Below, piece after piece: positions 1 to 37,449 of a DNA stretch of 54,677 nt (within the stretch, counting starts at the first letter, position 1; each line of letters starts with the position of its first letter). The notes beneath the pieces are model-generated. The model was given only the letters and a program-made list of their open reading frames with translations. It had not been told where the DNA came from and did no database searches. The position numbers were made by a program, and so were the translations under genes. The stretch is from Parvularcula sp. (GTDB taxonomy: Bacteria > Pseudomonadota > Alphaproteobacteria > Caulobacterales > Parvularculaceae), in assembly GCA_002704915.1 (NCBI GenBank), contig PAIP01000069.1, forward strand, positions 1 through 54,677, written 5' to 3'.

Positions 1-66
1 AGCTCAATGGCAGAGCAGAAGCTTCCCAAGCTTACGACGAGGGTTCGATTCCCTTCACCCGCTCCA
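1..66 (+). tRNA. tRNA-Gly (anticodon CCC), 5' end cut by window edge
   Basis: The first eight bases of the acceptor stem lie outside the window. The anticodon loop is TTCCCAA at 23-29, giving anticodon CCC at 25-27. The T arm carries the GTTCGATTC loop, and the 3' end GCTCCA (61-66) encodes CCA. The sequence closely resembles bacterial tRNA-Gly(CCC). It is the likely insertion target of the gene cluster that follows: partial copies of its 3' half occur at 27588-27630 and about 28264-28286. Confidence 0.95.
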
Positions 67-324
67 ACTTTTCTCAATTGTTGGTTCCGCCGGCTAGAAA
101 TACGGCGGAAGTGGTCGGCAAAGATGGCCGCTGATCGAACAAATTTTTCACCCAGCTAGAAGAATGATGAGGAGTCATTCAGCTAACAATAGCCGGCAGA
201 ATCGCTATGCAGTGACAATGTGAGCCGAGGCCTGGTCGAGCAGCATATCTGAAATTTGCGCCTTCGCTCGTCGACTAACAGGCGCGCCAATTCAGCCAAT
301 CGATAAGGTCGTCTCGCCTATATC

Positions 325-345
325 CGACATTATCTGTAAATGTCG
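325..345. promoter_or_regulatory. Inverted repeat CGACATT-N7-AATGTCG
   Basis: Perfect 7-base arms (325-331 and 339-345) flank a 7-base spacer. The inner GACATT/AATGTC resembles the TGACAT half-site that recurs at promoters across the island, so this may be a distant copy of the same operator. TTATATAAAG just downstream could be a -10-like element. No gene start lies close by. Confidence 0.35.
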
Positions 346-608
346 CCGGATTATATAAAGCATGGCTGGCGCCGAGCTGGAAGCGGAGAAGCTAGTCTTA
401 TCAAGCGCATTGAATTTGAAGATTAATGCTCGCTTTGCGCTTTTTAGGAGCTTTGGCCTGTCCCGCCAGTGGGACGGGGTGAGCCTTATCGACCATTGGC
501 AATGATGAGATACGAACCGGAAGTCTGTCCTGTTTTTTGTCTTACCGTAAAACAAGGATGCCAGCTTGGGGATTTGAAAATTCTTTCCAATTACATCAAT
601 TTATGAGG

Positions 609-625
609 ATGACATTTTATGTCAT
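609..625. promoter_or_regulatory. Palindromic operator ATGACAT-TTT-ATGTCAT
   Basis: A perfect 7-base inverted repeat with a 3-base spacer lies 91 bases before the GntR start. A second, one-sided copy TGACATTTTA lies at 664-673. Size, symmetry and position next to a GntR/FCD gene fit an autoregulatory operator, since FCD-type regulators usually bind short palindromes with a central spacer of about 3 bases. The same half-site recurs at other island promoters. Confidence 0.6.
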
Positions 626-715
626 AATCCATTGTTGGATGTTTGCCTGAAAAAAGTCCATTCTGACATTTTAGATTCTGCTGCGGTTAAATCATAACGG
701 CCTGAGGAGAAGTCA

Positions 716-1453
716 ATGCCTAAGAAAGCGCCGGTCTTTCAGGAGGTTGCAGGGGACGCTGCATCAGACAAGGCGGATCTCGGCGAGAAAGCTTATCGAC
801 TTCTCTACGGCGAAATTGTCCGTTGCAGGATTCTGCCCGGCGACGACATCACGGAAGCGCAAATGTGCGAGAAATATGATCTCAGCCGCAGCCCGGTGCG
901 CCGGGCGCTGGCGCTGCTCGCCCATGACGGCCTGATCACGCCAATCCCCCGTCTTGGTTTTCATGTTTCCGATATCAGCCTGGTGACCATACGCCAGACT
1001 TTCGAAATGCGTGCGGCGTTGGAAGGATTGGCCGCGCGGGCGGCCGTCGGCCGTGTGGATGTCGGCCTCCTTCGCAAGCTCAATGAAGAATATGTTTCTG
1101 GAGCGAAGGCGGGCCGCCATGGCATGATGGAGATTCACAACAGGATCCATCGTGAAGTTTACGCAGCCAGCAGCAATCCCATTCTAGAAAAAGTACTGAC
1201 CCAACTGCTCGACCAGTCAAACCGTATCGCCTATTTCGTGCCAAAAGTCGGTGGACGGGCGTTTTCCAGCAGCGACATCAACGCCGAAGAGCACGAATTG
1301 CTTTTTGACGCGATAAGCGAGAATGACGCTGAAAAAGCTGCAGCGCTGTTTCAGGCTCATATCCGGGAAAGCGAAGAGCAAGTGGTCGAAGCGCTGATGC
1401 AGTCTCGCTATTTCAGCGAACTTCCTATCCGGGTCGAAAGGCCGAGCGGCTAA
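716..1453 (+). CDS. GntR-family transcriptional regulator, FCD subfamily
   Basis: A 245-residue DNA-binding regulator, probably the local control protein of the catabolic cluster. A winged helix-turn-helix spans about residues 25-90 (core SRSPVRRALALLAHDGLI). An all-helical FCD ligand domain follows at about 95-230. The FCD domain keeps the usual metal/ligand histidines (NRIHREV, EEHELLF, FQAHIRES). A GAGGAG ribosome site lies 7 bases before the ATG, fixing the start. FCD regulators are normally repressors released by an organic-acid ligand, often the pathway substrate or an intermediate. The palindrome at 609-625 is its likely own operator. The ligand is unknown. Confidence 0.9.
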   Translation: MPKKAPVFQEVAGDAASDKADLGEKAYRLLYGEIVRCRILPGDDITEAQMCEKYDLSRSPVRRALALLAHDGLITPIPRLGFHVSDISLVTIRQTFEMRAALEGLAARAAVGRVDVGLLRKLNEEYVSGAKAGRHGMMEIHNRIHREVYAASSNPILEKVLTQLLDQSNRIAYFVPKVGGRAFSSSDINAEEHELLFDAISENDAEKAAALFQAHIRESEEQVVEALMQSRYFSELPIRVERPSG

Positions 1454-1687: not shown

Positions 1688-3904
1688 ATGATGAGAGGCG
1701 CGGCACATTTATTGGCATCCACGGCGGCGGTGGCTTTGGTTTCACAGGCCGGCGCGAATGCACAGACTGAGCAGCCGCAGACAGGGGCGCGTGCTGCAAC
1801 AGATCAGGTGGTCGTCACGGCTCGCCGCCGTGAAACCGTATTGAGCGTGACGCCGGTTTCTGCGACGGCGTTTAGCGGCGAGCAATTAGAGGATGCCGGT
1901 ATTGGAACCCTCGATGAGATTGCCGTTCAAACGCCGAACTTTAATTACGTGGATACAGGTCTTCAGCCCCGCTACCGGATTCGCGGCGACGGCCTTCAGG
2001 TTTTCAACGACACATCCGATTCGCCCGTCGGCTTCGCCGTGGATGAGGTTTTTTATGGAGCGGGCGCCCTTCAGCGTGCGCCGCTTTACGACATTCAGCG
2101 GGTTGAGGTTCTTCGCGGCCCCCAGGGCACGCTGTTCGGTCGAAATACGACTGCCGGTCTCGTCAATGTCTTCACCAACCAGCCGACTGAAGAGCATGAA
2201 GGCTATCTGACGGGTCAGTTCGGTTCGTTCAAAGGGCGGTTGATTGAAGGAGGGGTTAGCGGAGGGATAACCGATAACATTCGCGGTCGCGCCTCCTTTT
2301 ATTACAATGAGGATGAAGGCTTCCAGACGAACCTCGCTATTCCTGATGGGGTCAAATGGTCCAAAAAGGATGTTTTCTCGGCTCGTGTTCAGTTGTCTGT
2401 TGACTTGACGCCCGACGCGAACCTGCTCCTCAAGGCAGGCTATACAGAAGATCGCAGCGTTGCGCCGATGACCGGAACGCAAGGCGCGCTCGATCCGGAT
2501 ACGCTGGCGCCCTGCAGCAACGACCGCATTATCGCCAATGAATGCGTCAACGGCGTCGGTTTCATGGGGGTCGTTCCCAGGCCTGAGCGCGGTTACAGCG
2601 AATATGACGGTATGCCGAACCATCTCGATTTTGCTGAATATTCGGCACGATTTAATTGGGACATCACGCCGTCCATAAAGCTTGTGTCGATTACCGGCTA
2701 TCTGGATTACGACCGGTATTTTCAGGAAGACGGCGACGGTTGGGCTGTTGGCGGATTCCTCGGAAACGCCGGCTCGATCTATGGTCTCGATGCAGAGCAA
2801 TTCTCCCAAGAGCTGCAATTGCATGGAGAAACCGGCATCGCAAACTGGGTGCTGGGCGGCTTCTATTATAATGACGATCGGACCGCTATCAGCACAATTC
2901 CGGAGTTTTTCGGTGATGCGATCGATACGACCGGCAGAATTAAGACTGAATCATTTGCGGGGTTTGTCAGTGTTGACGCGCCGGTGACGGAAACGGTTTC
3001 GTTGGAAGCGGGAGGGCGTTTTACAAATGAGACGAAAGAACTTGATCTCATATTCGCTTTTGCTCCGGACGCCAGTTATGAAGTTGAGGTGAATGAATTC
3101 ACCTGGCGAACCGGCGCCAACTGGCGCCCAATAGATCCGGCTTTCTTCTATTTCAATGCTGCAACAGGGTACAAATCCCCCGACTTCAATACGACATTAT
3201 TGTTCGGCGATGCGTCCGCTGCTGCGCCGACTGAGCCTGAGACCAGTTTTTCCCTCGAGGCGGGTGGCAAGCTGGACCTCGGTGATGGGAGATTTAGCCT
3301 GTCCGCGGCGATTTTCCGGAATCGCGTCAAAAACAAGCAGGCGACAGTTACGCAAATTGTCAATGATTTGCCTGTCGCCCGGTTGTTTAACTTCGGCGAA
3401 GTGGAAATCCGCGGCGCCGAACTGGAATTTGCTGGCAAGCTGGCGGAAGGGCTGACAACGAAATTTGGAGTCTCGCTGCTTGATACGGAAATTCACGCAC
3501 CGGCGACGACGACATACAGTACCGGGCCGGCTAGCGACGTTACGCCAATCGACGGCAATGAGTTGCCCGCGACGCCGGAATACACATTTAACGGGCTTGT
3601 GCGATATGACTTTCCTGAAGTGTCTGCCGGTAATTTCGCACTTCAGGGTGATTTCAACTATATTGCCGATCAGTACTTCCAGCTCGACAATAATGAGCGG
3701 GACACACAGGATGCATATGGCGTCTTGAACCTGCGTGCTTTCTGGCGCGACAGCACTGACCGGTACAGCGTTCAGGTTTTCGTCGAAAATGTAACCGACA
3801 CCACTTACGCCTCTTACGTTGGAACGTGGAACGGTTTTGACACGCGCTATATCTGGTGGGGATTGCCGCGTACCTGGGGCGTTCGGGCGGGCGTTGAATT
3901 CTAG
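1688..3904 (+). CDS. TonB-dependent outer-membrane receptor
   Basis: A 738-residue outer-membrane gated channel for active uptake of a substrate too large or too dilute for porins. It has an N-terminal signal peptide ending near the alanine-rich stretch around residue 25, a TonB-box-like segment (DQVVVTARRR), and a plug domain at about 45-160 with the typical VEVLRGPQGTLFGRNTT block. A beta-barrel follows and ends in an aromatic C-terminus (VRAGVEF). It resembles the large receptor family of sphingomonads and Hyphomonas-like bacteria used for plant- or pollutant-derived organics rather than a clear siderophore receptor. No iron-uptake genes are nearby. It is first in a plus-strand run with the RidA fusion, an MFS carrier and an MDR oxidoreductase, so it likely imports the island's substrate. 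Confidence 0.93.
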   Translation: MMRGAAHLLASTAAVALVSQAGANAQTEQPQTGARAATDQVVVTARRRETVLSVTPVSATAFSGEQLEDAGIGTLDEIAVQTPNFNYVDTGLQPRYRIRGDGLQVFNDTSDSPVGFAVDEVFYGAGALQRAPLYDIQRVEVLRGPQGTLFGRNTTAGLVNVFTNQPTEEHEGYLTGQFGSFKGRLIEGGVSGGITDNIRGRASFYYNEDEGFQTNLAIPDGVKWSKKDVFSARVQLSVDLTPDANLLLKAGYTEDRSVAPMTGTQGALDPDTLAPCSNDRIIANECVNGVGFMGVVPRPERGYSEYDGMPNHLDFAEYSARFNWDITPSIKLVSITGYLDYDRYFQEDGDGWAVGGFLGNAGSIYGLDAEQFSQELQLHGETGIANWVLGGFYYNDDRTAISTIPEFFGDAIDTTGRIKTESFAGFVSVDAPVTETVSLEAGGRFTNETKELDLIFAFAPDASYEVEVNEFTWRTGANWRPIDPAFFYFNAATGYKSPDFNTTLLFGDASAAAPTEPETSFSLEAGGKLDLGDGRFSLSAAIFRNRVKNKQATVTQIVNDLPVARLFNFGEVEIRGAELEFAGKLAEGLTTKFGVSLLDTEIHAPATTTYSTGPASDVTPIDGNELPATPEYTFNGLVRYDFPEVSAGNFALQGDFNYIADQYFQLDNNERDTQDAYGVLNLRAFWRDSTDRYSVQVFVENVTDTTYASYVGTWNGFDTRYIWWGLPRTWGVRAGVEF

Positions 3905-4085
3905 CGTGGAAGGCGGGCTCTCACCGGCCGGACTGGCGCCGGTGCATGCGCAAACCAGGCGTGAAGAGGTGATTGGGAAGCCGCTGCGCTTCCCGTTTCA
4001 TTGTCAAGCTGGCCACATGCTAGCTTGGCTGTAAATCGATTACGGCGGCGATTATGCGTACGCTTTCCGCTCGACCGGAGTGAGC

Positions 4086-5252
4086 ATGAGCAGAGATAAA
4101 TCAACAAGCGGACGGCTAACCATCGGCGTCTCGCCCATGGTCAAGAAAGTCATGGAGGGCTTTAAGATCAGCCGCGCGGTTCGCAGCGGAGATTGGCTGT
4201 TCACCAACGGACAGATGGATATCGGCGACAATGCCAAGACCCTCAATCCGGATGACATGCTGGCCCAGAGCGTCACTTGTATGCGCAGCATTTACGAGGT
4301 GGTCGCGAGAGCGGACTGCCGGCTTGCCGAACTTGCGCAGATTCAAGTTTTCTATCTCGCAGACGCCATCGAAAACGAGACCGCCTATCGTGAGCAGATA
4401 CTTGAAGAGTTCCCGGAATGCCGCGACACGTTGATGATTTTGACGCCAGTGCCGAGCTTCGCGACTGTCGGTCATGTGGTCGAGATTGATGCGATTGCCG
4501 TTAAAGGAAAGCGCAGGGCCGTGAAGAGTGAGAAGGGCGTCACACTCGGCGTCAGGCGCGGCGATTGGGTGTTCGCTGAGGCTCGCTCTAATAACAGTCC
4601 GGCTGACGCATTGGCCGAGTTGCGCGAAACTCTTGACGGCCTCGGGGCTGACGTCAGCGATGCATGTCGAATCTACGCATATTACGGCGCCGAAAGGGAG
4701 ATCGAAGAACGGGTCTCGATGCAGCTGGAGCTAGCGACCGCGTTTCAGCAATCGCGGCCCGCGATTCACGCAACGCTGCTTCCTGGAAACAGGAGTTCGG
4801 ATTGTAAAATCGCCCTGGAAATTATTGCAAACGTAAACGCCGATGCGCCAAGGCGCGGTTTCGGCTCCGCCTACAGCCCCGATGCGATTGAAGACTGGCC
4901 GTTTAGCAATGCCCTGCGATGCGGAGAGGTTGTGTTCGTGAGCGGTCAGTTTCCCGTAAACGAAACCGGCGAGATCGTTCACCGAGGCGATATCGCCGAA
5001 CAGGCCAGGGCGGCGATGCGCGCCTTGCGCGAAGCGCTGGCCGAGGCCGGTGCAGGAATGGGTGATCTTGCAAAAATCAAAACCTATTACGAAGGCGCCT
5101 GGGACAAGGAGAATTGGTTTGACAATCTGAGAGCCCGCATGGAGCTGCTCAGCGATCCGGGTCCCGCGTCTTCCGGTATTGAAGGATTGCCGCCGGTGGA
5201 GGACGATGCGCTGCTGTCAGTAGATGGCGTGGCCGTTCTCGAACAAAATTGA
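4086..5252 (+). CDS. Triple RidA-domain (YjgF/UK114) fusion protein
   Basis: RidA proteins hydrolyse reactive enamines/imines and usually form homotrimers of about 130-residue subunits. This 388-residue protein contains three consecutive RidA-like segments: about 10-140 (core SGDWLFTNGQM), 145-250 (RGDWVFAEARS, degenerate) and 265-388 (CGEVVFVSGQFPV). One chain could therefore fold as a pseudo-trimer. At the active-site position where canonical RidA has arginine (PAR motif), segment 1 has PSFATVG and segment 3 PASSGIE, so the arginine seems missing there. An arginine occurs near the equivalent place in segment 2 (LPGNRSS). ATG 4086 is preferred over GTG 4080 because GGAG lies 5 bases before it. 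MFS follows 11 bases later. Confidence 0.8.
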   Translation: MSRDKSTSGRLTIGVSPMVKKVMEGFKISRAVRSGDWLFTNGQMDIGDNAKTLNPDDMLAQSVTCMRSIYEVVARADCRLAELAQIQVFYLADAIENETAYREQILEEFPECRDTLMILTPVPSFATVGHVVEIDAIAVKGKRRAVKSEKGVTLGVRRGDWVFAEARSNNSPADALAELRETLDGLGADVSDACRIYAYYGAEREIEERVSMQLELATAFQQSRPAIHATLLPGNRSSDCKIALEIIANVNADAPRRGFGSAYSPDAIEDWPFSNALRCGEVVFVSGQFPVNETGEIVHRGDIAEQARAAMRALREALAEAGAGMGDLAKIKTYYEGAWDKENWFDNLRARMELLSDPGPASSGIEGLPPVEDDALLSVDGVAVLEQN

Positions 5253-5263: not shown

Positions 5264-6526
5264 ATGACCATCATCCGCAATCACGCCGTTCTTCTGGTTT
5301 TGACATTCATCATCATCATTCACGCCATTGATCGACTTGCGATCGTGATCCTGCTCGAGGATATAAAGAACGATCTCGGCCTGACCGACGCGCAGCTCGG
5401 GTTTTTATCAGGATTTGCTTTCGTCGTGCTCTATGTGGCGGCGAGCATCCCGATGGCCTATGTCTCCGATCGCTCAAATCGCAGCCGCCTTATTGGCGCC
5501 GCCTTGATGGTGTTCGGCGGGATGACGGTGCTTTGCGGTCTTGCACAAAATTTCGCGCAACTCGCTGCAGCCCGGTGCGGCGTCGGCATCGGCGCTTCGC
5601 CATGCGTGCCGGCGGCCCATTCAATAATCGCTGACATCTATCCGCCGCGTCAAAGGACCACGGCGCTTTCCATTACGGAATGCGGGTTCTTTATCGGCTC
5701 GTTCATCGGTCTGTGGTTGTGCGGCTGGATAGCCACGCATTATGGCTGGCGTATGGCATTTTTTGTGGTGGGTCTGGCGCCGGTCCTTCTTGGGCTCGTT
5801 TCATTCTTTGTAATGCGCGACCCACCGCGCCGCGCCAAAGCGCATGAAGCGAATCGCAGCTTCCTGGGTTCTCTCGGTGTTATTCTTGGCGTACCTGCAG
5901 TGCGATATTACATTCTCGGAAGCGCTCTGGCGGTATTCGGCCTGGCCGGCATGATCACCTGGCTGCCGACCCTGATGATACGCGCTTATGATATGACGCG
6001 TGCGGAAGCGGGCGGATATATCGGCGCAATCAATGGCGTTGGAGGGTTGTTCTTTACCATCATTGTCGGCGTCGCCGCCGACCGGTTGTCGCGGCGGGAC
6101 GCGCGCTGGAATCTCTGGATACCGGCGTCGCTCTTTGCAGTTAGCGCGCCCTTCGCGGCCATGGCGTTTCTCAGTCATACACCGATGGCAATATTGGTCT
6201 TTTTCGCGTTCGCCGCGTCTTTCGTGACGGCCTGCAGCGCGCCTATTGTCAGCTATTCCCAACAGATCATGCCGTCCAATGTCCACGCCATGGTGACAGC
6301 AGTGATATTCTTGGCGTTGAACCTCATTGGCTTCGGCGCGGGTCCCCTAGCCATTGGCGTTCTTAGCGACGCATTGGCGCTGATCTCCAGCGAGGATCAA
6401 GCCTTGCAAAAGGCGCTGCTTTACCTTGCACCGCCGGCCCTCTTGATTGGTTCTGCTTTCGTGACGCTAGGGGCCAGTCTTTCAGGTAAACCGCAAGAGC
6501 CCGACAGGCTGCAGACGGCGCGCTGA
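5264..6526 (+). CDS. MFS transporter (12 TM, spinster-like)
   Basis: A 420-residue inner-membrane secondary transporter with about 12 hydrophobic helices. The loop between TM2 and TM3 carries a motif-A relative (AYVSDRSNRSRLIG), and the first helix contains the IHAIDRLAIVILL signature seen in the spinster/organic-anion-like MFS group common in alphaproteobacterial catabolic clusters. It sits 11 bases behind the RidA fusion and ahead of the MDR oxidoreductase, in one transcription unit. The likely role is proton-coupled import of the compound delivered by the TonB receptor. Export cannot be excluded. Confidence 0.9.
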   Translation: MTIIRNHAVLLVLTFIIIIHAIDRLAIVILLEDIKNDLGLTDAQLGFLSGFAFVVLYVAASIPMAYVSDRSNRSRLIGAALMVFGGMTVLCGLAQNFAQLAAARCGVGIGASPCVPAAHSIIADIYPPRQRTTALSITECGFFIGSFIGLWLCGWIATHYGWRMAFFVVGLAPVLLGLVSFFVMRDPPRRAKAHEANRSFLGSLGVILGVPAVRYYILGSALAVFGLAGMITWLPTLMIRAYDMTRAEAGGYIGAINGVGGLFFTIIVGVAADRLSRRDARWNLWIPASLFAVSAPFAAMAFLSHTPMAILVFFAFAASFVTACSAPIVSYSQQIMPSNVHAMVTAVIFLALNLIGFGAGPLAIGVLSDALALISSEDQALQKALLYLAPPALLIGSAFVTLGASLSGKPQEPDRLQTAR

Positions 6527-6590
6527 ATGCTCGAACCCGACCTTGGCGCAGATGGGTCAAGAGCGCCGTTCAACAAAGGAGACATGTTTC

Positions 6591-7592
6591 GTGAAAGCGT
6601 TATTGTCCTTCAGTCCCGGCGGTCCTGAAACGCTGAAGCTGGCGGAAATGCCGGTTCTCAACCCCGGACCAGGCCAATTGCGCGTTCGCGTTCTCGCCTG
6701 CGGGATCAATTATCCGGACGTGCTCATCATTGAAGATAAGTATCAGTTCAAACCGGAACGGCCATTCGCGCCAGGAAGCGAGATTACCGGCGTTGTGGAG
6801 GCGATTGGTGAAGAGGTCGAGGGGTGGAAGCAAGGCGAGCGCCTGATCGCTATCATGGGCGCCGGCGGCGGTCTCGCAGAACAGGCGGTCGTCAAAGCCG
6901 ATGACGCCATCAAGTTGGGCGATGATCTAGATCCTGTGGAAGGCGCCGCGCTCGTCTTCACCTATGGCACAACGCTTCATGCATTAGCTGATCGGGGCCA
7001 GCTCAGGCCAGGCGAGACGTTGTTGGTGTTAGGCGCGGCCGGCGGCGTCGGGCTGGCCGCCATTGAAATCGGCAAGGCGATGGGCGCGCATGTTGTTGCG
7101 GCGGTTTCAAGTTCGGAGAAAGCCGCGGCGGCGTCAGAAGCGGGCGCGGACCGGACCATGATCTATCCGCGCGGGCCATTTGACAAAGACGCATCGAAGG
7201 CGCTTTCGCGCCAGTTCAAGAGCGAGGTTGGCGATGATGGCGCGCATGTGATCTATGATCCTGTCGGGGGGGATTATGCGGAACCCGCTCTGCGTGCGAT
7301 TGCCTGGGAGGGGCGTTACCTGGTCGTCGGTTTTCCTGCCGGTATTCCCAAACTACCGCTGAATTTGACGCTGTTGAAAGCATGCGATGTCCGCGGCGTG
7401 TTTTGGGGCGGCTTTTTCATGCGCGATCCGAAACGTCACCGCCAGCATGTGGCGCAGCTTCTCGAATGGTGGCGGGATGGTCGTATTCGTCCGCGCATAG
7501 ACAAAATTTATCCGCTTGAGGAAGGAGGCGAGGCGATCGCGCGGCTTTCGAGCCGATCCGTTATTGGCAAAGTTGTCGTCCGTTTGAATTGA
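6591..7592 (+). CDS. Zinc-free MDR oxidoreductase (quinone reductase / enoyl reductase-like)
   Basis: A medium-chain dehydrogenase/reductase, 333 residues from the GTG at 6591. That start is chosen because AAAGGAG lies 9 bases upstream and the fold begins directly (VKALLSF). A GroES-like N-terminal domain is followed by a Rossmann domain with the NADPH-binding block LGAAGGVGLAAIEIGKAMGA. The cysteine/histidine ligands of zinc alcohol dehydrogenases are absent, as in quinone oxidoreductases and acryloyl-CoA/enoyl reductases. In a CoA-ligase and crotonase cluster, reduction of a conjugated enone or enoyl-CoA is as plausible as quinone reduction. It ends 12 bases before the convergent deacylase gene. 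Confidence 0.88.
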   Translation: MKALLSFSPGGPETLKLAEMPVLNPGPGQLRVRVLACGINYPDVLIIEDKYQFKPERPFAPGSEITGVVEAIGEEVEGWKQGERLIAIMGAGGGLAEQAVVKADDAIKLGDDLDPVEGAALVFTYGTTLHALADRGQLRPGETLLVLGAAGGVGLAAIEIGKAMGAHVVAAVSSSEKAAAASEAGADRTMIYPRGPFDKDASKALSRQFKSEVGDDGAHVIYDPVGGDYAEPALRAIAWEGRYLVVGFPAGIPKLPLNLTLLKACDVRGVFWGGFFMRDPKRHRQHVAQLLEWWRDGRIRPRIDKIYPLEEGGEAIARLSSRSVIGKVVVRLN

Positions 7593-7604: not shown

Positions 7605-8651
7605 TCACGTCAGATCGAGATGCGTCCAGTCATGGGCGAGATAGGCGACGCTGTCGCCCGTATGCACGACCGGGTCTTGCCTGACCGCTATCAATAAAAC
7701 GTCTTTCGGCACGATAACAGTATCGGCGAACAAGCCGGTAAGATCGGTGACCGTTCCAATTTCTTGCCCGGCTTTGATGAGAACCCCGGGTTGATGCTTA
7801 GACTGCCACATGCCGCCCGCATCGGAATTGCAATGGCTGCGTTCGGACACCAGCCAGGTCTTTACTCCTTTGGGATGGTCTTTTTGCGCCGGCAGCATGC
7901 CAAGCTCGGCGCATATACTGCCGTAACAGGCGGCGCCGAAGCTGACCTGGTCCGGCGTTGCCCGTTGCGCCACCCCGAGCTCGATCATGAATGCGGGGAT
8001 GCCGTTGGCCAGCGCCATGTAATCCAAAGCGCCCGCATGGTTGCCGGGATGTTCGCCGGAGCCGGGCTTGACGCTTTGATGGCAAATCACGAAAGGCTCG
8101 AAACAGCGCATGTAGCGATAAAGCTGTTCCGGTTTCACAGGGCAATCGGGCGGCAGCTTGTAAACGCCATATACCATGCTTTCAAAGTCGGTCCCCTGCG
8201 CATGCATACTCAGCAAGAGATCGGGCCTTACCGCCATAACCTCGCGAAACAGCCGGTCCGCCATGCGTTCGGTTACAAAGCCGTTTGACCGGCCGGGAAA
8301 CATCGTGTCGAGGTTTTGACCGAAATCCTGTTGTGTGCTCCAGGTCCGGCTTTCAAGCGCCAGAGGATTGGCGCTAGCTGTGAAAATCACGCAGCCTTTC
8401 AGTGTTTTCGGGTCGAGACGGTTGCAAAAATTGATGCCGGCGACGATGGCGCATACTTCTGTCCCATGGACTTGGCCGTTGATCCAGAGCGTAGGTCCCG
8501 GCTCCTCGCCGATCACGACAATGTAGCTGACGGCGATTTCCGCTCCGGTCGCGCGCGCGCCCAGCGGGATGCGCCCGCGATGAACCGTGCCCGGAGCCCC
8601 GTCGCGGGTGATTGCTTCGATCGTCATTAGTTCTAGACCGGCCTCATCCAT
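7605..8651 (-). CDS. Succinylglutamate desuccinylase/aspartoacylase-family zinc deacylase
   Basis: A 348-residue M14-like metallohydrolase. Zinc ligands are visible as HxxE in NGQVHGTEVCA (about residues 58-68) and a later histidine in LLLSMHAQGTD. The C-terminal beta domain (GQEIGTVTDLTG) is typical of the family. Members remove an acyl group from N-acyl amino acids or related amides, so this enzyme may open an amide-linked substrate before CoA activation. It is divergent from the crotonase gene across a 354-base region with a strong inverted repeat (8809-8848). An alternative start is the Met at residue 9 (8627). No convincing ribosome site separates the two. Confidence 0.85.
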   Translation of the reverse strand: MDEAGLELMTIEAITRDGAPGTVHRGRIPLGARATGAEIAVSYIVVIGEEPGPTLWINGQVHGTEVCAIVAGINFCNRLDPKTLKGCVIFTASANPLALESRTWSTQQDFGQNLDTMFPGRSNGFVTERMADRLFREVMAVRPDLLLSMHAQGTDFESMVYGVYKLPPDCPVKPEQLYRYMRCFEPFVICHQSVKPGSGEHPGNHAGALDYMALANGIPAFMIELGVAQRATPDQVSFGAACYGSICAELGMLPAQKDHPKGVKTWLVSERSHCNSDAGGMWQSKHQPGVLIKAGQEIGTVTDLTGLFADTVIVPKDVLLIAVRQDPVVHTGDSVAYLAHDWTHLDLT

Positions 8652-8808
8652 GGTTCTTGTTCGTCCTTTTCTTGATGCGGTTTCAGCGACGCGGTGCGCA
8701 AGCGCAACCCCGATGAAACCCCTTGTCTTACCAGCCGATCGCGAGAAAGGCTGTTACAAAGCCCCAAAACGCCATGCCGCTGCCCCATAATTGAAATTTC
8801 AGAAAATC

Positions 8809-8848
8809 ATATTGACATATCACAATTGATAAAAGAAAATGTCAATAT
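8809..8848. promoter_or_regulatory. Long inverted repeat ATATTGACAT-N20-ATGTCAATAT
   Basis: Perfect 10-base arms (8809-8818, 8839-8848) sit 30 bases apart start to start, about three helical turns, in the divergent promoter region between the deacylase and the crotonase (8652-9005). GAAATTTC, itself a palindrome, lies at 8793-8800. Each arm contains the TTGACAT half-site found elsewhere in the island. The layout suits cooperative dimer binding controlling both directions. Confidence 0.6.
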
Positions 8849-19248: not shown

Positions 19249-19314
19249 GGGCGGATCTCCTGCGAGCTTATAGGATGTGGCGCGTCGCAAGAAGTCGTGC
19301 CTTCGATAAACAAA

Positions 19315-19340: not shown

Positions 19341-19356
19341 GTTATCTGAAACACAT

Positions 19357-20356: not shown

Positions 20357-22105
20357 ATGACCGAGAGCGTTGCTGAGGCGATTGCGTCTGCGCTGGTGCG
20401 GCACGAAGTTGAATTTGTCTTTGGTCAGAGCAATCCGACAGCCTTAATGCTGGCGGTTGAGGGCGCCGGCATCCGGCAACTCCTCTACAGGACGGAGAAT
20501 GCTGCAGGCGCAATGGCCGACGCCTATTCTCGCATTTCGAACAAAATAGGTGTTGTGGCTGCTCAGAATGGCCCGGCCGCCACGTTGATGGTGGCGCCTA
20601 TGGCGGAAGCGATGAAAGCTTCAAATCCCATGCTGGTGTTGGTTCAGGAAGTTCCGGCGTCCCAGCGCGATCGCAATGCTTTTCAAGAGCTCGATCACTT
20701 CGCCCTGTTTGCCGGAGTATCAAAGTGGGTTCGCCGCTTGGACGACCCTGACCGAGCTGCGGAATATATTGACCTGGCGATGACGGCGGCCAATGGCGGA
20801 CGGCCAGGGCCGGTCGTGTTGCTCCTTGCGAAAGACATGTTGCTCAAACCAAGCGATCCGGCAGGTTTGCCGCGAAGACAAAGTCTTGGACGCTTCCCGC
20901 TTGACCGTCCCCGGCCCGAAGCTCAAACCGTTGAGGTTGCGGCCAAGTTGCTTGCTGACGCGAATTCGCCTGTTGCGATTGTCGGCGGCGGGGTTCATGC
21001 GGCGCAAGCCACGCAAGAGCTGGCCCGTTTCATTGATGTTTCTCATATACCTGCTGCGACAACCTTTATGGGCAAGGGGGCCGTAGACGAAACAAGCCCC
21101 TTGTCGATGGGCGTTGCTGCAAATATCACGGGCGAAAACGGACCGGCGGACGCATATAAAGATATGCTGGCGAACGCTGATGTTGTTCTGCTAGTTGGAA
21201 CACGCACCAATGAAAATGGGACTGATGCGTGGTCTTTAACGTCAAAAGACGCCGTTTATATCCACATCGATGTAGACTCTTCAGAAGTCGGAAGAAACTA
21301 TGAGAGCGTGCGTCTTGTCGGTGATGCGAAATCGGCCATATGCGATCTTGCTGCAGCGTTGGAGAGGCGTGATTTAAAAAAGCGCATTCAGAGCTTCTCT
21401 GATTTGGTCGGCAAAATTGATGCCGGCCGCAAGCGAAGGGAAAACGCGCTTCGCCCTGAGTTGATCTCTTCGGCGCGACCTATCATGCCGCAACGCCTTA
21501 TGGCCGATCTCGATCAAATGATCGACGCGGACGATATCGTTGTTGCGGACGCCAGTTATTCGTCTGTTTGGGTTACGGCGTATCTGACGGCCCGGCGAGC
21601 TGGGCAGCGCTTTCTAACGCCGCGTGGATTAGCGGGGCTGGGCTGGGGACTGCCATATGCCATGGGCGCCAAGCTGGCGCGCCCGCAGGCGAAAGTTGTC
21701 GGTGTGGTGGGGGATGGCGGTTTCGCTCATGTTTGGGGTGAGTTGGAGATGGCGGTTCGCGAACACATTCCGCTTGTGCTTATCGTTCTCAACAATTCTC
21801 AACTTGCAATGCAGCGCCACGGCGAGCTGGTCGGGTTTGGAAAAACGACGACCGGCATTGAGTTTGCTGCTGTGGATCACGCCGGGATAGCCAGAGCGGT
21901 TGGTGCGGCGGGCGTGCGCGTGGAAGACCCGGAAGAATTCGGGCCTGCGCTACGAAAAGCGCTCGCGGCTGATACGGTGACCGTTCTCGATGTCATCAGT
22001 TCTCCAAACGCATTTGCGCCGCTGAAGGTTTTTGAAGGCCACACGCAAAAGCTTGATACGCCGGCGGCCAAAAGACGCGCACATCTGAAAAGTGTAGAGG
22101 CGTGA
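20357..22105 (+). CDS. Thiamine-diphosphate-dependent enzyme, acetolactate synthase/benzoylformate decarboxylase-like
   Basis: A 582-residue ThDP enzyme with the usual three domains: pyrimidine-binding at about 1-165 (catalytic glutamate in YRTENAAGAMADAY), central at about 190-320, and pyrophosphate-binding at about 370-530 (VGDGGFAHVWGELEMA followed by NNSQLA). Members decarboxylate 2-oxo acids or make and break acyloin C-C bonds. No small regulatory subunit gene (ilvH-like) is adjacent and the context is catabolic, so a biosynthetic acetolactate synthase role is unlikely. A GGAGGGG ribosome site precedes the ATG. The stop runs into the remnant of an aldehyde dehydrogenase, suggesting an ancestral lyase-dehydrogenase pair. 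Confidence 0.88.
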   Translation: MTESVAEAIASALVRHEVEFVFGQSNPTALMLAVEGAGIRQLLYRTENAAGAMADAYSRISNKIGVVAAQNGPAATLMVAPMAEAMKASNPMLVLVQEVPASQRDRNAFQELDHFALFAGVSKWVRRLDDPDRAAEYIDLAMTAANGGRPGPVVLLLAKDMLLKPSDPAGLPRRQSLGRFPLDRPRPEAQTVEVAAKLLADANSPVAIVGGGVHAAQATQELARFIDVSHIPAATTFMGKGAVDETSPLSMGVAANITGENGPADAYKDMLANADVVLLVGTRTNENGTDAWSLTSKDAVYIHIDVDSSEVGRNYESVRLVGDAKSAICDLAAALERRDLKKRIQSFSDLVGKIDAGRKRRENALRPELISSARPIMPQRLMADLDQMIDADDIVVADASYSSVWVTAYLTARRAGQRFLTPRGLAGLGWGLPYAMGAKLARPQAKVVGVVGDGGFAHVWGELEMAVREHIPLVLIVLNNSQLAMQRHGELVGFGKTTTGIEFAAVDHAGIARAVGAAGVRVEDPEEFGPALRKALAADTVTVLDVISSPNAFAPLKVFEGHTQKLDTPAAKRRAHLKSVEA

Positions 22106-22200: not shown

Positions 22201-22494
22201 TTCGGACCGGTTGCGCCATTTCAGAGTTTCTCCGATGAGCGCGATGTCATCAAGCGCGCCAATAGCACGGATTTGGGCTTTGCCTTCTATGTTTATACGC
22301 GTGACCTCGATCGGGTCTTGCGAGTTGGAGCGGATCTCGAAGCCGGGTTGGTAGGCGTCAATACTGGGTTCATTTCCGATCCGGTTGCGCAATTTGGCGG
22401 CGCCAAGCAATCGGGGCTCGGCAAAGAGGGCGGGGTTGTAGGCATCGAGGAATTTCTCAGCGCCCAGTACAGCGGCATCGGCCTGGGCGCATAG
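22201..22494 (+). pseudogene. Aldehyde dehydrogenase remnant (C-terminal ~97 codons)
   Basis: From 22201 the frame reads FGPVAPFQSFSDERDV and continues with the C-terminal domain of a succinate-semialdehyde-type aldehyde dehydrogenase, ending in FGGAKQSGLGKEGG and a normal stop. The catalytic cysteine and the whole NAD-binding part (about 80% of the gene) are missing. A short frame starting at 22106, directly after the ThDP enzyme stop, is out of register with it and not recognisable. This looks like an internal deletion. The residual frame lacks a usable start and is probably not translated. Confidence 0.85.
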
Positions 22495-22768: not shown

Positions 22769-25045
22769 ATGATGAAGTTAAGTGTTTTCAAAAGCTGTTT
22801 GGCGTCCGCCGCATCAACGGTTATTTCCATCGGCGCAGCGCAGGCGCAGGTCGATGAAATTGTCGTTACATCGCAAAAGCGCGAGCAGAATGTTCAGGAT
22901 GTCGGCATCGCTGTGACGGCATTTGGCGACGAGCAAATCAGGGCCGCGGGCATCTCAACGGCTGATAATGTTGCGGACTCAATCTCCGGCGTACAGATCT
23001 ATAATTATCGGGGCAAAAGCCAGCCATCTTTCGTTGTAAGAGGGGTTGGAACCCAGGATTTTGCGCCGAACACGTCGCCGACAGCGGCCGTTTACATCGA
23101 CGAGGTTTATCTCGGATCAAACATCCTCACAGGCTTTCAGATTTTTGATGTCGAGCGTGTCGAAGTTTTGAAAGGTCCCCAGGGAACACTGTTCGGCCGC
23201 AATACGACAGGCGGTGCGGTCAGCTATACGACGAAGAGGCCTACCGACGAATTTGAAGGCTATGCGGAACTCGGCTATTCGAATTATCAGTCAGTAGACG
23301 GCAAGCTGGCGATTGGCGGAGCTGTCGCAGATGGGATCAGAGCCCGTTTGGCGGGAAAAGTATCTAATCAAGCCCGTGGATATTACGAAAACACCTTTAC
23401 CCAGGATCAAAACCCATTCGGGCCTTTTCCCAACTTTTCTAATCTGGAGACGGATATTGGCGAAGACTTCAACTGGGCGGCGAGACTGCTTACTGAATTC
23501 GATATTGGCGCTAACGCGACCCTATTGCTGAATGTTCACGGCGGCGGCAGAGAATCGGATACTTTGCCTGTCACTTCATTTGGATTCACGCAAATCCCGG
23601 GCTCCGGCGGGGTATGTCAGGCCACCGCCACGGGCGGTGCGGTTTCTGATCCGCGCTTTTGTGGCGATGCCTTTGGCTACTCCGATACGGATGGCGATCC
23701 GTATGTCGTCAGCAATGATGTCGTCGGTAAGAATGATGAAGAGAACATCGGCGCTTCGGCTCGTTTGGAATGGGATCTCGGATCTGTATCCTTTACATCG
23801 GTATCCGCTTATGAAAATGCAGATAAGCTGCAGAGCGCAGACGCTGACGGTTCTGCCTTTGCGGTTTTCACAAATGAATACGATATCGAGTTAAAACAAT
23901 TCAGCCAGGAATTCCGGCTGAACTCAAACTCAAATGGCGATCTATTCTGGATTGCGGGGGCGTATTTCAGTTTCGATGAAATCGATCAATTGTTTTACGG
24001 CGATTTGAATCCGCTACTTGGGCTTGGTGTCGAGTTTAATAATGAGTTCGAGCAGAAAACCACTAGCGCCGCAGGCTACGGGCAAGCAGAGTATTTTTTC
24101 ACCGATAAACTGCGCGCGACTGCAGGACTGCGGTTCACGTATGAAAAACGGGACTTCTTCAGCATCAACACCTTTACGGATGAGTTTGGGAACGAGACAA
24201 TCGCGAACTTCGGTCTTACGCCAGACGACGCTGCGATCATTGACGATACTGTCACCAATAAAAAACTCTCGGGCCGCATCGGCCTGGATTATTTCCTGAC
24301 CGATGATGCGATGATTTACGCAAGTTATTCGCGAGGCTTCAAAAGCGGCGGCTATGATGGCGACTTCTCATTTACGCGCCAGCAGCTGGACCCCTACAGC
24401 GAAGAGATTCTAACCTCCTACGAATTCGGCTGGAAAACGACTCTGGCGGACGAGCAGCTTCGTTTCAACGGCGCCGCCTTTTACTATGATTATGCCGACC
24501 CGCAGGTTCGGGTGCAGCGCATCAGCAACGCCGGCCTTCCGTTCAACCAATTGATCAATCTGAATTCTGCAGATGTTCTCGGTGTTGAGACGGATCTTTT
24601 GTGGGCGCCTGTTGACGGGCTGGATTTGGCGGCCTCCTACACATATCTCGATACGCAATTAAATGTTGTGGACCCTGATCCTGCGCTGGCTTTGTTTGAC
24701 GGAAATGAGCTTCCGCTTGCCGCAAACCATTCCTTCACCGTATTGGCGCGATATGAGCAGCCAGTGACAGATCGTTTTTCTGCATCGTTCCAAGTCGACG
24801 GAAAGTATAACGGCGAGTATGAACTGAACGCGGAAAACCTGCCCTGGCTAGCACAGGATTCCTATTTCTTGCTCAATTCGCGGCTGAGCCTTTTTGAAAC
24901 GGATGGCGGCTGGGAGTTGTCTGTCTGGGGGCGGAACCTGCTCGATGAGACCTTCCTGATCGGTAGCTATTCCTTGTTTGGCGCCTTCCCCGGCTATTAC
25001 AACGCGCCGCGAACCTATGGCGTAACGCTTCGTTACGACTGGTAA
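22769..25045 (+). CDS. TonB-dependent outer-membrane receptor (second)
   Basis: A 758-residue receptor, of the same broad family as the one at 1688 but clearly not a recent duplicate. Signal peptide ending near AAQAQ (about residue 26), TonB-box-like DEIVVTSQKREQ, and plug with VEVLKGPQGTLFGRNTTGG. The barrel ends in VTLRYDW, the aromatic C-terminus recognised by the outer-membrane insertion machinery. The start codon follows directly a run of eight G (22761-22768) that takes the place of the ribosome site. It leads the unit with an MFS carrier and an exported cyclase-family enzyme, forming a second uptake module at the right end of the island. Confidence 0.93.
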   Translation: MMKLSVFKSCLASAASTVISIGAAQAQVDEIVVTSQKREQNVQDVGIAVTAFGDEQIRAAGISTADNVADSISGVQIYNYRGKSQPSFVVRGVGTQDFAPNTSPTAAVYIDEVYLGSNILTGFQIFDVERVEVLKGPQGTLFGRNTTGGAVSYTTKRPTDEFEGYAELGYSNYQSVDGKLAIGGAVADGIRARLAGKVSNQARGYYENTFTQDQNPFGPFPNFSNLETDIGEDFNWAARLLTEFDIGANATLLLNVHGGGRESDTLPVTSFGFTQIPGSGGVCQATATGGAVSDPRFCGDAFGYSDTDGDPYVVSNDVVGKNDEENIGASARLEWDLGSVSFTSVSAYENADKLQSADADGSAFAVFTNEYDIELKQFSQEFRLNSNSNGDLFWIAGAYFSFDEIDQLFYGDLNPLLGLGVEFNNEFEQKTTSAAGYGQAEYFFTDKLRATAGLRFTYEKRDFFSINTFTDEFGNETIANFGLTPDDAAIIDDTVTNKKLSGRIGLDYFLTDDAMIYASYSRGFKSGGYDGDFSFTRQQLDPYSEEILTSYEFGWKTTLADEQLRFNGAAFYYDYADPQVRVQRISNAGLPFNQLINLNSADVLGVETDLLWAPVDGLDLAASYTYLDTQLNVVDPDPALALFDGNELPLAANHSFTVLARYEQPVTDRFSASFQVDGKYNGEYELNAENLPWLAQDSYFLLNSRLSLFETDGGWELSVWGRNLLDETFLIGSYSLFGAFPGYYNAPRTYGVTLRYDW

Positions 25046-25135: not shown

Positions 25136-26467
25136 ATGCGAGAAGTAAGTCAGAGCGACGTTAAGAGCGGGCTATACCCTTGGTTTGTCGTGATCGTGTT
25201 GCTAGTGGCCTACACCCTGTCGTTTATTGACAGGCAGATCATATCGTTATTGGTCGATCCCATACGTGATGACCTCAAGATATCAGATACGCAGATCAGT
25301 TTGCTTCAGGGACTCGCGTTTGCCCTTTTCTATACGCTGATGGGCATCCCAATAGCCAAGTGGGCGGACACGCGTTCACGACGAAACATCATTGTTGCGG
25401 GCGTATTCGTATGGTCCTTGATGACGGCGTTTTGCGGCATTGCCAAGAATTATTGGAGCCTCTTTATCGGACGCCTGGGCGTCGGCGTTGGAGAGGCGGC
25501 GCTATCACCCGCATCTTATTCAATGATAACAGATTACTTTCCTCCAAACAGGTTAAGCACAGCGTTGTCGCTTTACGGCGCTGGCCCATATATCGGGTCG
25601 GGGCTTGCATATCTGCTCGGCGGCGCGACGGTCAGCTATCTCGACAGCCTTGGCGCCATTAACATGCCGGTCCTTGGCGCAGTTTCCAGTTGGCAAGCAG
25701 CGTTTGTTATTGTGGGTGCGCCGGGCCTCATTCTGGCGCTGTTGATGCTGGTTCTTGTCCGGGAGCCGGTGCGCAAATTCGAAAGACCTGATCGCAAACA
25801 TGAGGTATCTTTTATAAAGGATGTGGCGCCCTTTATGATAAAGCATGCGAGGTTCTATCTATGCCATGCTTGCGCCATCGGGCTTGTTTCGTTGGTCGCT
25901 TACAGCACCTTTGCCTGGCTGCCGTCCTATTTCATCCGCGTTTATGGGATGCCGGTTGGTGAAGTCGGTAGGAATATCGGTCTCTTGATTCTCATTTTCG
26001 GACCGCTTGGCATCATGGCGGGCGCGCGCCTTGCTGAGTACTTGCAAAACAAGAAATCATATATTGACGGCGCCATGCGCAGCGTATGGATCGGCACGTT
26101 TTTGATAACGCCCGCAGTAATAGGCATTACGGCGATACGCACCGAAGTGATCTCTTTTTCGTTAGTGGGCGTCGTCTTTTTCCTTGTCGCATTTCCATTC
26201 GGGTCCGGCGTTGCGGCGCTTCAAATGGCGACGCCTCCGCATTTTCGGGCGCAAGCCTCAGCCGTGTATCTGTTCATCAATAATCTGATAGGGTTGGCCA
26301 TTGGGCCGACGGCTGTGGCGCTGGTCACAGACTTTGTATTTGAGAATGACGCCGCCGTCGGCGCCTCGCTCAGTATTGTCGGGGCGGGCGCCGGCGCCGG
26401 CGCATGTTTGCTGAGTTATTTATCGCTTAAACCGTTTCGGAAAATGTTAGCGGCCGACACCTTTTGA
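25136..26467 (+). CDS. MFS transporter (spinster-like)
   Basis: A 443-residue, 12-helix inner-membrane carrier. The first helix contains TLSFIDRQIISLLVDPI and the TM2-TM3 loop GIPIAKWADTRSRRNIIVAG, both typical of the spinster-type MFS group also represented at 5264. It lies 90 bases after the TonB receptor and 51 before the cyclase, in one direction. It probably moves the compound imported by the receptor, or its periplasmic hydrolysis product, across the inner membrane. Confidence 0.9.
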   Translation: MREVSQSDVKSGLYPWFVVIVLLVAYTLSFIDRQIISLLVDPIRDDLKISDTQISLLQGLAFALFYTLMGIPIAKWADTRSRRNIIVAGVFVWSLMTAFCGIAKNYWSLFIGRLGVGVGEAALSPASYSMITDYFPPNRLSTALSLYGAGPYIGSGLAYLLGGATVSYLDSLGAINMPVLGAVSSWQAAFVIVGAPGLILALLMLVLVREPVRKFERPDRKHEVSFIKDVAPFMIKHARFYLCHACAIGLVSLVAYSTFAWLPSYFIRVYGMPVGEVGRNIGLLILIFGPLGIMAGARLAEYLQNKKSYIDGAMRSVWIGTFLITPAVIGITAIRTEVISFSLVGVVFFLVAFPFGSGVAALQMATPPHFRAQASAVYLFINNLIGLAIGPTAVALVTDFVFENDAAVGASLSIVGAGAGAGACLLSYLSLKPFRKMLAADTF

Positions 26468-26518: not shown

Positions 26519-27460
26519 ATGAGAAAAATGCTGAGATCTTTGACCCTCTGTGCCATCGTTGTTAATGGCGCAGTCTGTCCGGTTGCCGCGCAACCCCATC
26601 CGCAGTCAAAATGGGGTAAAGAAGATACGATTGGTTCAGCCAATTATCTGACAGCGGAGCTGGCGCTTGGAGCAGCTGAGCTGGTTACGACAGGAAAAGT
26701 TTATGCGCTTGGCCTTCCTGTTGGCGGCAGCTCGCCCGCGGTCGCGCCGCGCAGAATGGCGATCAATATATTGATGCCGGGCCAGTATGGCGGGGCCACA
26801 TTGGGATCGAATGAAGCGAGTTACCTCGATGACATGATTTCAGGTTGGCTTGGCGTCGGCACCCAGATAGACGGTCTGGCTCATGCCGGCCGCCGTGGAG
26901 TTTTTTACAATGGAAACAAAGCGAGCGATTTCGCAACACCGACCGGCGTCAAGAAACTGGGCGTCGAGGGCATTCCGCCAATCGTCACACGTGGCGTCTT
27001 GATCGATATCGCCAAGCATCGAGGCGTGACAAGGTTGGAAGAAGGAGAAGTAATTTCGCCGGAAGAGTTGGAAGCCGCGGCGAGAGAGCAGGGCGTGTCC
27101 ATCCGTGAAGGCGATGTGGTGATTATTCACACGGGCTGGATATCCATGCTCGACGAAGATCCCGACCGCTTTTTGGCGGGTGAGCCGGGAATAGATCGAA
27201 AAGGCGCTGAATATCTTGCCGGCAAGAATGTCGTTGCGGTTGGCGCGGACACATGGGGGATCGACGCCGTTCCATTCAAGGACGACACTGTCTTTGATGC
27301 GCATGTAACGCTGCTTTATGAAAACGGCACCTATTTGTTGGAGAGTTTGGACACGCGCGAACTTGCGTCGGACGAGGTCTATGAGTTTATGTTCGTGTTA
27401 GGGCAGCCCCGCTTTGAAGGCGCGGTGCAGACTGTGGTCAATCCTGTTGCAATAAAATAG
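26519..27460 (+). CDS. Exported cyclase-family (kynurenine formamidase-like) metal hydrolase
   Basis: A 313-residue protein of the cyclase family (PF04199 type). The first ~24 residues form a signal peptide ending at PVAAQ, so it acts in the periplasm. The metal-site region reads LGVGTQIDGLAHAG, a variant of the HxGTHxDxxxH motif in which the first histidine is not obvious. Family members hydrolyse amides (kynurenine formamidase, isatin hydrolase) or make cyclic products. Downstream elements GDVVIIHTGW and VGADTWGIDAVP are typical. Placed behind a TonB receptor and an MFS carrier, it may open an amide or lactam ring in the periplasm before inner-membrane uptake. It is the last intact gene before the tRNA-like repeat. 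Confidence 0.87.
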   Translation: MRKMLRSLTLCAIVVNGAVCPVAAQPHPQSKWGKEDTIGSANYLTAELALGAAELVTTGKVYALGLPVGGSSPAVAPRRMAINILMPGQYGGATLGSNEASYLDDMISGWLGVGTQIDGLAHAGRRGVFYNGNKASDFATPTGVKKLGVEGIPPIVTRGVLIDIAKHRGVTRLEEGEVISPEELEAAAREQGVSIREGDVVIIHTGWISMLDEDPDRFLAGEPGIDRKGAEYLAGKNVVAVGADTWGIDAVPFKDDTVFDAHVTLLYENGTYLLESLDTRELASDEVYEFMFVLGQPRFEGAVQTVVNPVAIK

Positions 27461-27587
27461 CTTGTGGGCCTCCTGAACAGGTTTCTAAATGTGACGGACG
27501 AAAAGCCTCAGGAGGATATGTCAACTAAGCTTGATGTTATTTGCAATCCTGTGTGATGGTTCCCAGGCGACAAAAGCAGCTGGACTA

Positions 27588-27630
27588 TTCCCAAGCTTAC
27601 GACAAGGGTTCAATTCCATTCACCGATCCC
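27588..27630 (+). repeat. Degenerate copy of tRNA-Gly 3' half (candidate attachment-site remnant)
   Basis: Aligned to tRNA positions 23-65, the first 16 bases (TTCCCAAGCTTACGAC) are identical, and over 37 bases there are only three substitutions. The acceptor part then continues with one deleted base and one substitution. It covers anticodon loop, variable and T arms, in the same orientation as the tRNA. This is the pattern left by integration of an element into a tRNA 3' end. The 5' half is absent, so it is not a tRNA gene. Confidence 0.8.
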
Positions 27631-27841
27631 TGCTATTAAAGAAAACGGGATGCCGTTTATGCCTCGCACGCGTAAACTCGTTATAGCCGCATAGCTGCGC
27701 CAACAACGCCGCCAACGCTGACGGCCGCTTGGCGGCCTGCGCATCCGCCAGATGGGCGTCTCGCTAGGTGGTCTTCGGCGGGAGATGACCGAGGAGGCGC
27801 CGATGATTGGCAAAGACAGCCCCTCCGATAGCCCGAAACTG

Positions 27842-28099
27842 TCGAAGCTGTGCCGCTTCACCGTGGATCTGGAAGCGATCAGGGTTCCGGCCCTATTCCT
27901 GCGTGGCGAAGACGATCAGATCGTCCCGATTGAAAACTCGGCGCACAAGGCGATCAAACTCGTTCGCGATAGAACCTTGAAGACCTATCCCGGGCTTTCG
28001 CATGGCCTGTTCGCCAGGCATCCTGAACTGATCAACGTCGACCTCCTGGCGTTCATCCGCGCCTGGGCAAGAAACACGGGCTACAATCGCGCGCCGTAA
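27842..28099 (+). pseudogene. Alpha/beta-hydrolase remnant (chloroperoxidase/arylesterase-like C-terminus)
   Basis: About 85 codons match the last third of non-haem chloroperoxidase-type hydrolases: VPALFLRGEDDQIVPIE contains the acid residue, and YPGLSHGLFARHPE the catalytic histidine. The nucleophile serine and the N-terminal two thirds are missing. The frame extends upstream to 27752 without similarity. It lies between the two tRNA-like repeats, so it may be the last trace of a second integrated segment. Confidence 0.75.
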
Positions 28100-28592
28100 C
28101 GGCCACACTGACAATGGGGCAATATCAAATCGAAACGTGGAGAATTATTGTCGTCGCGAAACGCAACATGATCTTTCCCGCCTCCGCCCATGCGCTTTAT
28201 GAAGTCCATAATTCCCCTTAGTGGAGCCCGTAACTATCTGAAACTATTATGGTTATGGGCAGCAATCGAGCCCGTCACCCGCTCCATATCGCTTTATTTC
28301 TATATTTGCTTGAAAAAGAAAAATTCAAATTAGTATTTGAGAGCCTCTTTTTTGAAAATTCCTGCAATAATCGTCTTATAAGACAGGTTCTATTTTTTGT
28401 AATGCATTTCGAATTTCGTAATTATTACAGCTTTGATATTGAAAACTGTTCCTGTATTTTGATGCTAATGCCGCTCAGTCAGAAAGTTTGAGTGATGTGA
28501 GCGATTCCGCGGGGGAAGTCGCACAAGAAAATTCATGAACGCGTGGAATTCACGTGCGAGCAAGGCTGTGGGTGACATAGGGCGTAAGGTGC
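28100..28592. other. Non-coding AT-rich stretch at the right end of the island
   Basis: This 493-base gap has low G+C around 28240-28490 and no convincing gene. The 80-codon frame at 28249-28491 has no ribosome site, no family resemblance and an unusual composition. It contains the second tRNA-like remnant (about 28264-28286). The promoter of the following IclR gene must lie near its right end, but I see no clear boxes. Confidence 0.5.
28264..28286 (+). repeat. Second tRNA-Gly 3'-end remnant (T arm to CCA)
   Basis: CCCGTCACCCGCTCCA at 28271-28286 matches tRNA positions 51-66 with one substitution and includes the CCA end. The preceding ATCGAG resembles the T loop with one base deleted. Same orientation as the tRNA. 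The match is short, so chance or an unrelated tRNA fragment is possible, but the position just outside the first remnant supports an outer attachment site. Confidence 0.5.
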
Positions 28593-37445: not shown

Positions 37446-37449
37446 AAGA

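Follow-up and report, generated by a model that had tools for sequence, protein, structure and literature searches.

How does a block of catabolic genes come to lie between a tRNA gene and the core genes of a chromosome, with no recombinase in sight? The question is raised by contig PAIP01000069.1 of a Parvularcula species (assembly GCA_002704915.1), the whole of which, 54,677 nucleotides, was analysed and is called the window here; it is contig C71 of the genome denoted G000 (4.5 Mb in 85 contigs). An initial annotation had described its first part as an old tRNA-Gly(CCC) catabolic island without an integrase. Our analysis points to a tRNA-bounded island resembling a cis-mobilisable element (CIME), derived from site-specific integration and standing in tandem with the remnant of an older insertion, and we give this reading a probability of roughly 0.8. 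What it starts from is directly observed, namely the tRNA, two repeats of it, near-empty sites and other fillings in relatives, a second location of the same genes, and the lack of any recombinase match.

The tRNA-Gly(CCC) gene and its repeats

A contig end cuts through tRNA-Gly(CCC) at the start of the window, where positions 1..66 (plus strand) correspond to tRNA positions 9-74 and are taken as the left attachment site (attL). Since C71 opens at tRNA position 9, no tRNA is called by ARAGORN in the window; the identical 66 bases close another contig, C34, which holds the remainder and where a complete tRNA-Gly(CCC) is called, so that a tRNA gene stands at one end of the island. At the other end, a degraded copy of the tRNA 3' half, here direct repeat 1 (DR1), lies at 27588..27630 on the plus strand, in the same orientation as the tRNA. 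It begins at tRNA position 31, two bases 5' of the anticodon; 34 of the 37 bases at 27588-27624 are identical to tRNA positions 31-67, and beyond these, up to 27630, the copy shows one deletion and one further substitution. The repeat seen in the initial annotation is therefore real, and it is read as the right attachment site (attR) of the island. A further repeat, DR2 (28276..28286, plus strand), reproduces exactly the 11 bases at the 3' end of the tRNA, for which 0.03 chance matches are expected in the window.

That these repeats are chance matches, in an interval variable by ordinary rearrangement, is hardly credible. DR2 alone, with just 11 bases, would allow it, but a 30-base core of DR1 with up to three mismatches found no match in 100 shuffles, which refutes chance for DR1; moreover, DR1 is correctly oriented and extends across the 3' half of the tRNA, and relatives carry near-empty sites at this place. 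Nor is DR1 scattered over many unrelated loci, which the initial annotation had named as a reason for giving up the island, because the 66-base tRNA query has only four matches in its own genome: two self copies from the contig overlap, tRNA-Gly(TCC) at 80%, and DR1 itself. The overlap between C34 and C71 reaches exactly as far as the tRNA 3' end, and a search of the assembly found no third copy; a break at just this point could reflect a population with differing sequence after the tRNA. The assembly of another genome of the genus, G013, likewise breaks at tRNA-Gly(CCC) (contigs C13 and C11), where the two contigs share 99 bases up to the second base after the tRNA.

At the gloB side, two layers may be told apart with the help of G005, a close relative (91% for the gene of 274 amino acids 5' of the tRNA on C34, which we take to be SYLF, and 79% for gloB). 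In this genome the last 14 tRNA bases are found about 330 base pairs (bp) before the IclR regulator gene, and in the window the 11 bases of DR2 are found about 306 bp before it. The stretch from DR2 to the IclR gene aligns between the two genomes above shuffles (z 5.0); for the 300 bp before DR2 there is no alignment above shuffles (z 0.6). The island proper ends at 27630, and the sequence shared with G005 starts at 28276. By this comparison, DR2 would be an older outer boundary, its position matched by G005, within which the two genomes hold different cargo, and the remnant between both repeats (27631..28275), containing a C-terminal hydrolase fragment at 27752-28099, is probably a leftover of an earlier filling. 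Beyond it follow the IclR regulator (28593..29390, plus strand), which also adjoins gloB in G003, G004, G005 and G040, and the gloB-like hydrolase (29392..30297, minus strand), a flanking core gene. The earlier view that core sequence resumes at gloB thus has to be corrected, with shared sequence from 28276 on and the IclR gene preceding gloB; as for the extent first proposed, 1..28286, its right end coincides with the end of the DR2 11-mer, but the island proper is shorter.

The same interval in relatives and a second location

The gene of 274 amino acids and gloB were searched as flank genes in G000 and 27 further genomes of the genus. In 23 of the 27 relatives both lie on one contig; they are on separate contigs in G001, G005 and G013, and neither ortholog was obtained in G018. 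An empty site with the tRNA close to gloB had been predicted for relatives, and our results revealed such near-empty sites in four of them, where the spacing between tRNA and gloB is 14, 26, 39 and 114 bp (G043, G021, G006 and G016, respectively). The spacing is 352, 435 and 437 bp in G010, G007 and G011, and about 0.9 to 15.5 kb in the other 16 of the 23. In none of these 23 relatives does the interval contain the module, as judged by tblastn of the window proteins, the sole match being a crotonase at 26% in G002. As to composition, the guanine-plus-cytosine (GC) content of the island is 0.548 against 0.590-0.593 in the flanks, and that of third codon positions (GC3) is 0.604 in its 22 open reading frames (ORFs) against 0.682 in 47 flanking ones, a modest difference. 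A gene order common to all relatives with core-like composition, which would have spoken for core sequence, is thus not what is seen, and the near-empty sites together with the absence of the module support a tRNA-bounded accessory island.

Moreover, the interval between tRNA-Gly(CCC) and gloB is an insertion hot spot in the genus. It is filled by Tad-pilus genes in G022, by Tad-domain proteins in G004 and G040, and by an AAA_15 gene (another than that of G020) with a ParA-type gene in G008. In G020 (C12:34235-36604) the filling is a single AAA_15 gene, enclosed by the tRNA and, 2,275 bp further along, an exact 29-bp repeat of the tRNA 3' end; the GC content is 0.477 against 0.634 around it. 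The gene has an OLD-like TOPRIM match slightly below the Pfam cut-off, and this integrase-free insert of one gene may carry a defence function. In G014 a 29-bp repeat at 93% follows 90 bp after tRNA-Gly(CCC), and in a genome of another family, G031, the tRNA is separated by 1.1 kb from a 48-bp repeat at 96%. The tRNA itself seems to be dispensable in the genus, since it is broken in G040 (C36 2205-2254, positions 25-53 replaced by 5 bases) and is not found in the interval of G002 and G012.

The module has a second location. With the thiamine diphosphate (ThDP) enzyme as marker, it is present in one of the 27 relatives, G023, and absent from the other 26. There, all 20 module genes are found at C2:146884-174964 with their order kept and inverted as a block, bounded on one side by tRNA-Arg(ACG) (146512-146588) and on the other by a 48-bp repeat (176787-176834) identical to positions 30-77 of that tRNA. 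All 14 genomes sampled keep the block preceding tRNA-Arg at least in part (as an inversion in G004, as one partial gene in G008), and four genes right of the G023 repeat were found in none of the stretches taken from these 14. When shared island ends were sought, nucleotide similarity between G000 and G023 was seen over 770-27460 only and nowhere outside the module. A second aldehyde dehydrogenase, long in G023, is reduced in the window to its last 89 codons (22201..22467, plus strand, 70% identity). This 3' remnant and the degraded repeat agree with the great age ascribed to the island at the outset, and the insertion in G023 is suggested to be younger because its repeat is exact. As to a plasmid vehicle, the best plasmid matches are 62.8% for the ThDP enzyme (Embleya, in a stretch with no annotated genes) and 51.7% for the cyclase; a scan of 84,980 species genomes with two strict peptide patterns, of narrow reach and possibly leaving out G000, returned the G023 contig and one distant relative at 26%.

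Possible integrase loss and its alternatives

No recombinase is visible in the island, the 649-bp leader next to the tRNA (67..715) included, which confirms the first observation in this respect. In G000, neither the 13 matches to PF00589 at E ≤ 10 nor the 6 matches to PF00239 fall on C71 or C34. Pfam at E ≤ 1 found no recombinase in all six frames of 67-715 and two of the six frames of 27461-28592, and tblastn with four integrases of the genus (from G014, G000 C49, G007 and G005) gave a best window match of E 2.4, with no remnant. The same holds for the other repeat-bounded inserts at E ≤ 10: PF00589 has 7 matches in G023 (none on C2, and no PF00239 match in the genome), 6 in G020 (none on C12), 9 in G014 (none on C28) and 5 in G031 (none near the insert). 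Among the ORFs scanned with Pfam there are no transfer genes either, and the island, with neither an integrase of its own nor conjugation or mobilisation genes, is not an integrative and conjugative element (ICE) or an integrative and mobilisable element (IME).

At tRNA-Arg, on the other hand, integrases are seen in several states: an open one of 353 amino acids adjoins the tRNA in G014, one with an internal stop is found in G013, and a fragment covering profile positions 107-161 lies 160 bp from the tRNA in G015. This graded series, which concerns tRNA-Arg and not tRNA-Gly(CCC), favours integrase loss over an element that never had one. In the same G015 region (C8:24603-42803), tRNA-Arg(ACG) and a 51-bp repeat at 96% enclose 18 kb in which peptidase genes, a ParB-like gene and one for a TonB receptor are found. 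The sister tRNA, tRNA-Gly(TCC), is also an insertion site: a tyrosine integrase ORF of 405 amino acids (G000:C49:55259-56593) starts about 120 bp downstream of it, and no second repeat is seen there within 11 kb.

Such elements could instead be integrase-free by nature, that is, cargo between tRNA repeats moved in trans by integrases elsewhere and forming a satellite-like class in the genus. This would suit the lack of PF00589 matches in the repeat-bounded inserts of all five genomes, the single gene between tRNA and exact repeat in G020, and the occurrence of the same cargo at two tRNAs. Nevertheless we regard it as unlikely, for the intact, interrupted and fragmentary integrases at tRNA-Arg fit ordinary loss, small inserts are also expected from internal deletion of larger islands, and no helper for tRNA-Gly(CCC) was identified. 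Rather unlikely, too, is the composite picture in which one 20-gene cargo sits on two integrase-free elements, at tRNA-Gly(CCC) and tRNA-Arg(ACG), repeat-bounded inserts down to one gene are moved in trans, and the site is still polymorphic in the sampled population, which the position of the contig break would suggest.

For the CIME-like island, we infer from the observations the class of the enzyme, the order of the two insertions, the arrival route and the former presence of an integrase. An element of about 27.5 kb (67-27587) would have been inserted site-specifically, most likely by a tyrosine integrase, with the crossover at the anticodon loop of tRNA-Gly(CCC). The tRNA would have been made whole again by the copy that the element brought (attL), its original 3' half being pushed to the far end as DR1 (attR). 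The element would form a tandem with an earlier insertion, which would survive as a stretch of 645 bp plus the outer repeat DR2. The cargo of the element is the 20-gene module for uptake, coenzyme A (CoA) activation and oxidation. What is left in G000 would be a decayed CIME-like element which, as no recombinase remains, presumably cannot move itself. That the island became fixed by loss of its mobility gene, as had been proposed, is plausible and not proven, with no remnant found and a contig break that is compatible with a population still differing at the site.

Several points weigh against the reading as a CIME-like island. DR2 is only 11 bases long, the stretch before the IclR gene does not align with G003 (z 0.8), and the join of C34 and C71 rests only on the 66-base overlap and the gene order in relatives. 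Furthermore, an integrase remnant was found in the island neither by Pfam nor by tblastn, and no integrase stands beside tRNA-Gly(CCC) in the full match lists of 8 genomes or among the matches listed for the others. Finally, at fourfold sites the module of G000 and G023 has an identity of 0.462 against 0.514 for 12 core genes, both near saturation. A recent transfer between the two genomes had been argued from amino-acid identity, whose median is 80.4 for the island (22 ORFs called mechanically, of which two or more are spurious) against 68.7 for the 12 core genes; the argument was dropped, because the fourfold sites disagree and are near saturation. Recent exchange is therefore not supported, and two separate acquisitions or one old one remain. 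A module identity not above that of the core is also what would be expected if the cluster had stood here in the genus ancestor, had been lost in most lineages and had moved in G023. Such an ancestral chromosomal cluster is quite improbable, however, with the module missing from 26 of 27 relatives and from the interval in all 23, its lower GC content, and tRNA repeats bounding it in both genomes.

Gene content and relation to known islands

The genes of the module are on the plus strand unless stated otherwise. It starts with a GntR/FCD regulator (716..1453), followed by a TonB-dependent receptor (1688..3904), a Rid/L-PSP domain protein of 390 amino acids (4080..5252), a major facilitator superfamily (MFS) transporter (5264..6526), a protein of the zinc-type dehydrogenase or quinone reductase family (6543..7592) and an AstE/AspA-like hydrolase (7605..8651, minus strand). 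A crotonase of the enoyl-CoA hydratase family (8694..9761) probably has its true start near 9040, because its alignment with G023 has stops in the first 80 columns only. Then come a PaaK-like CoA ligase (9806..11176), a second crotonase (11255..12136), a short-chain dehydrogenase at 79% in G023 (12596..13609, minus strand, the overlapping plus-strand frames being probably spurious), a DsbA-like thioredoxin-fold protein (13500..14147, minus strand) and an AMP-binding acyl-CoA synthetase (14144..15877, minus strand). The remainder consists of an alpha/beta hydrolase (16003..16905), an aldehyde dehydrogenase (16999..18429), a short-chain dehydrogenase (18451..19248), an IclR regulator (19297..20127), the ThDP enzyme of acetolactate-synthase-like type (20357..22105) and, after the aldehyde dehydrogenase remnant, a TonB-dependent receptor (22769..25045), an MFS transporter (25136..26467) and a cyclase-family hydrolase (26519..27460) as the last gene.

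By Pfam, the cargo thus has two each of TonB receptors, MFS transporters, CoA ligases, crotonases and short-chain dehydrogenases, together with GntR and IclR regulators, the aldehyde dehydrogenase, the ThDP enzyme, the AstE/AspA-like, cyclase-family and alpha/beta hydrolases, and the Rid-domain, DsbA-like and zinc-type dehydrogenase proteins. With NCBIfam, on 17 of the 20 module genes, a curated cut-off was reached among the families shown only by the short-chain dehydrogenase at 18451 and the ThDP enzyme; no model matched the cyclase, whose one match to a PDB chain is uncharacterised. As a guess, the substrate might be an aromatic or similar acid handled as CoA ester. A pathway of isatin or indole-acetate type was also considered as a candidate. 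The module is still under purifying selection: between G000 and G023, 20 of 21 aligned ORFs have a ratio of nonsynonymous to synonymous substitution rates (dN/dS) of 0.03-0.17, the remaining one being spurious, though synonymous sites are saturated and the ratios rough. Stops interrupt the alignment with G023 in six of the 22 ORFs; three of these have them at their very ends and one within its first 80 columns, ahead of the enzyme domain, and the other two ORFs are spurious. In the downstream flank, SpoVR, DUF444 and PrkA form a conserved block (34244-39499), with 82-90% identity in G023 and 92-96% in G022.

The locus offers unusually good natural comparisons, in which near-empty and differently filled sites come together with a tandem remnant and a second location, and a whole uptake-and-degradation pathway behaves here as exchangeable tRNA-site cargo in a marine alphaproteobacterial genus. 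A literature search for islands lacking an integrase returned no papers, which tests the wording only. Islander, described in PMC4383910, deals with tRNA-targeting islands, and ours resembles them in several ways: an undamaged tRNA gene is faced at the opposite boundary by a direct repeat of its 3' part, the crossover falls in the anticodon region, the enclosed genes are accessory, and relatives have a near-empty site. It differs in having no integrase, and since Islander rejects candidates of this kind, it would not report the island; other detectors that require an integrase would likewise miss it.

A similar comparison can be made with the ssrA islands of Dehalococcoides bearing vinyl chloride reductase genes (PMC3146451), which share metabolic cargo, tandem arrangement, repeats of an RNA-gene 3' end and strain-specific content; there the target is tmRNA, and sixteen of them carry a serine-recombinase integration module, whereas the island of G000 has none. 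Helper-dependent elements, the subject of the review PMC11389934, are also a described kind. A close likeness is to CIMEs and their accretion in the account of PMC5704250: attachment sites kept, integration and transfer genes absent, and tandem arrangement at one target gene. Unlike these, the site in G000 has no partner ICE or IME, its attR is degraded, and mobilisation in cis is putative. To sum up, the structure is a known one, a tRNA-bounded island in decayed tandem form, and belongs to an ordinary kind of old genomic island.

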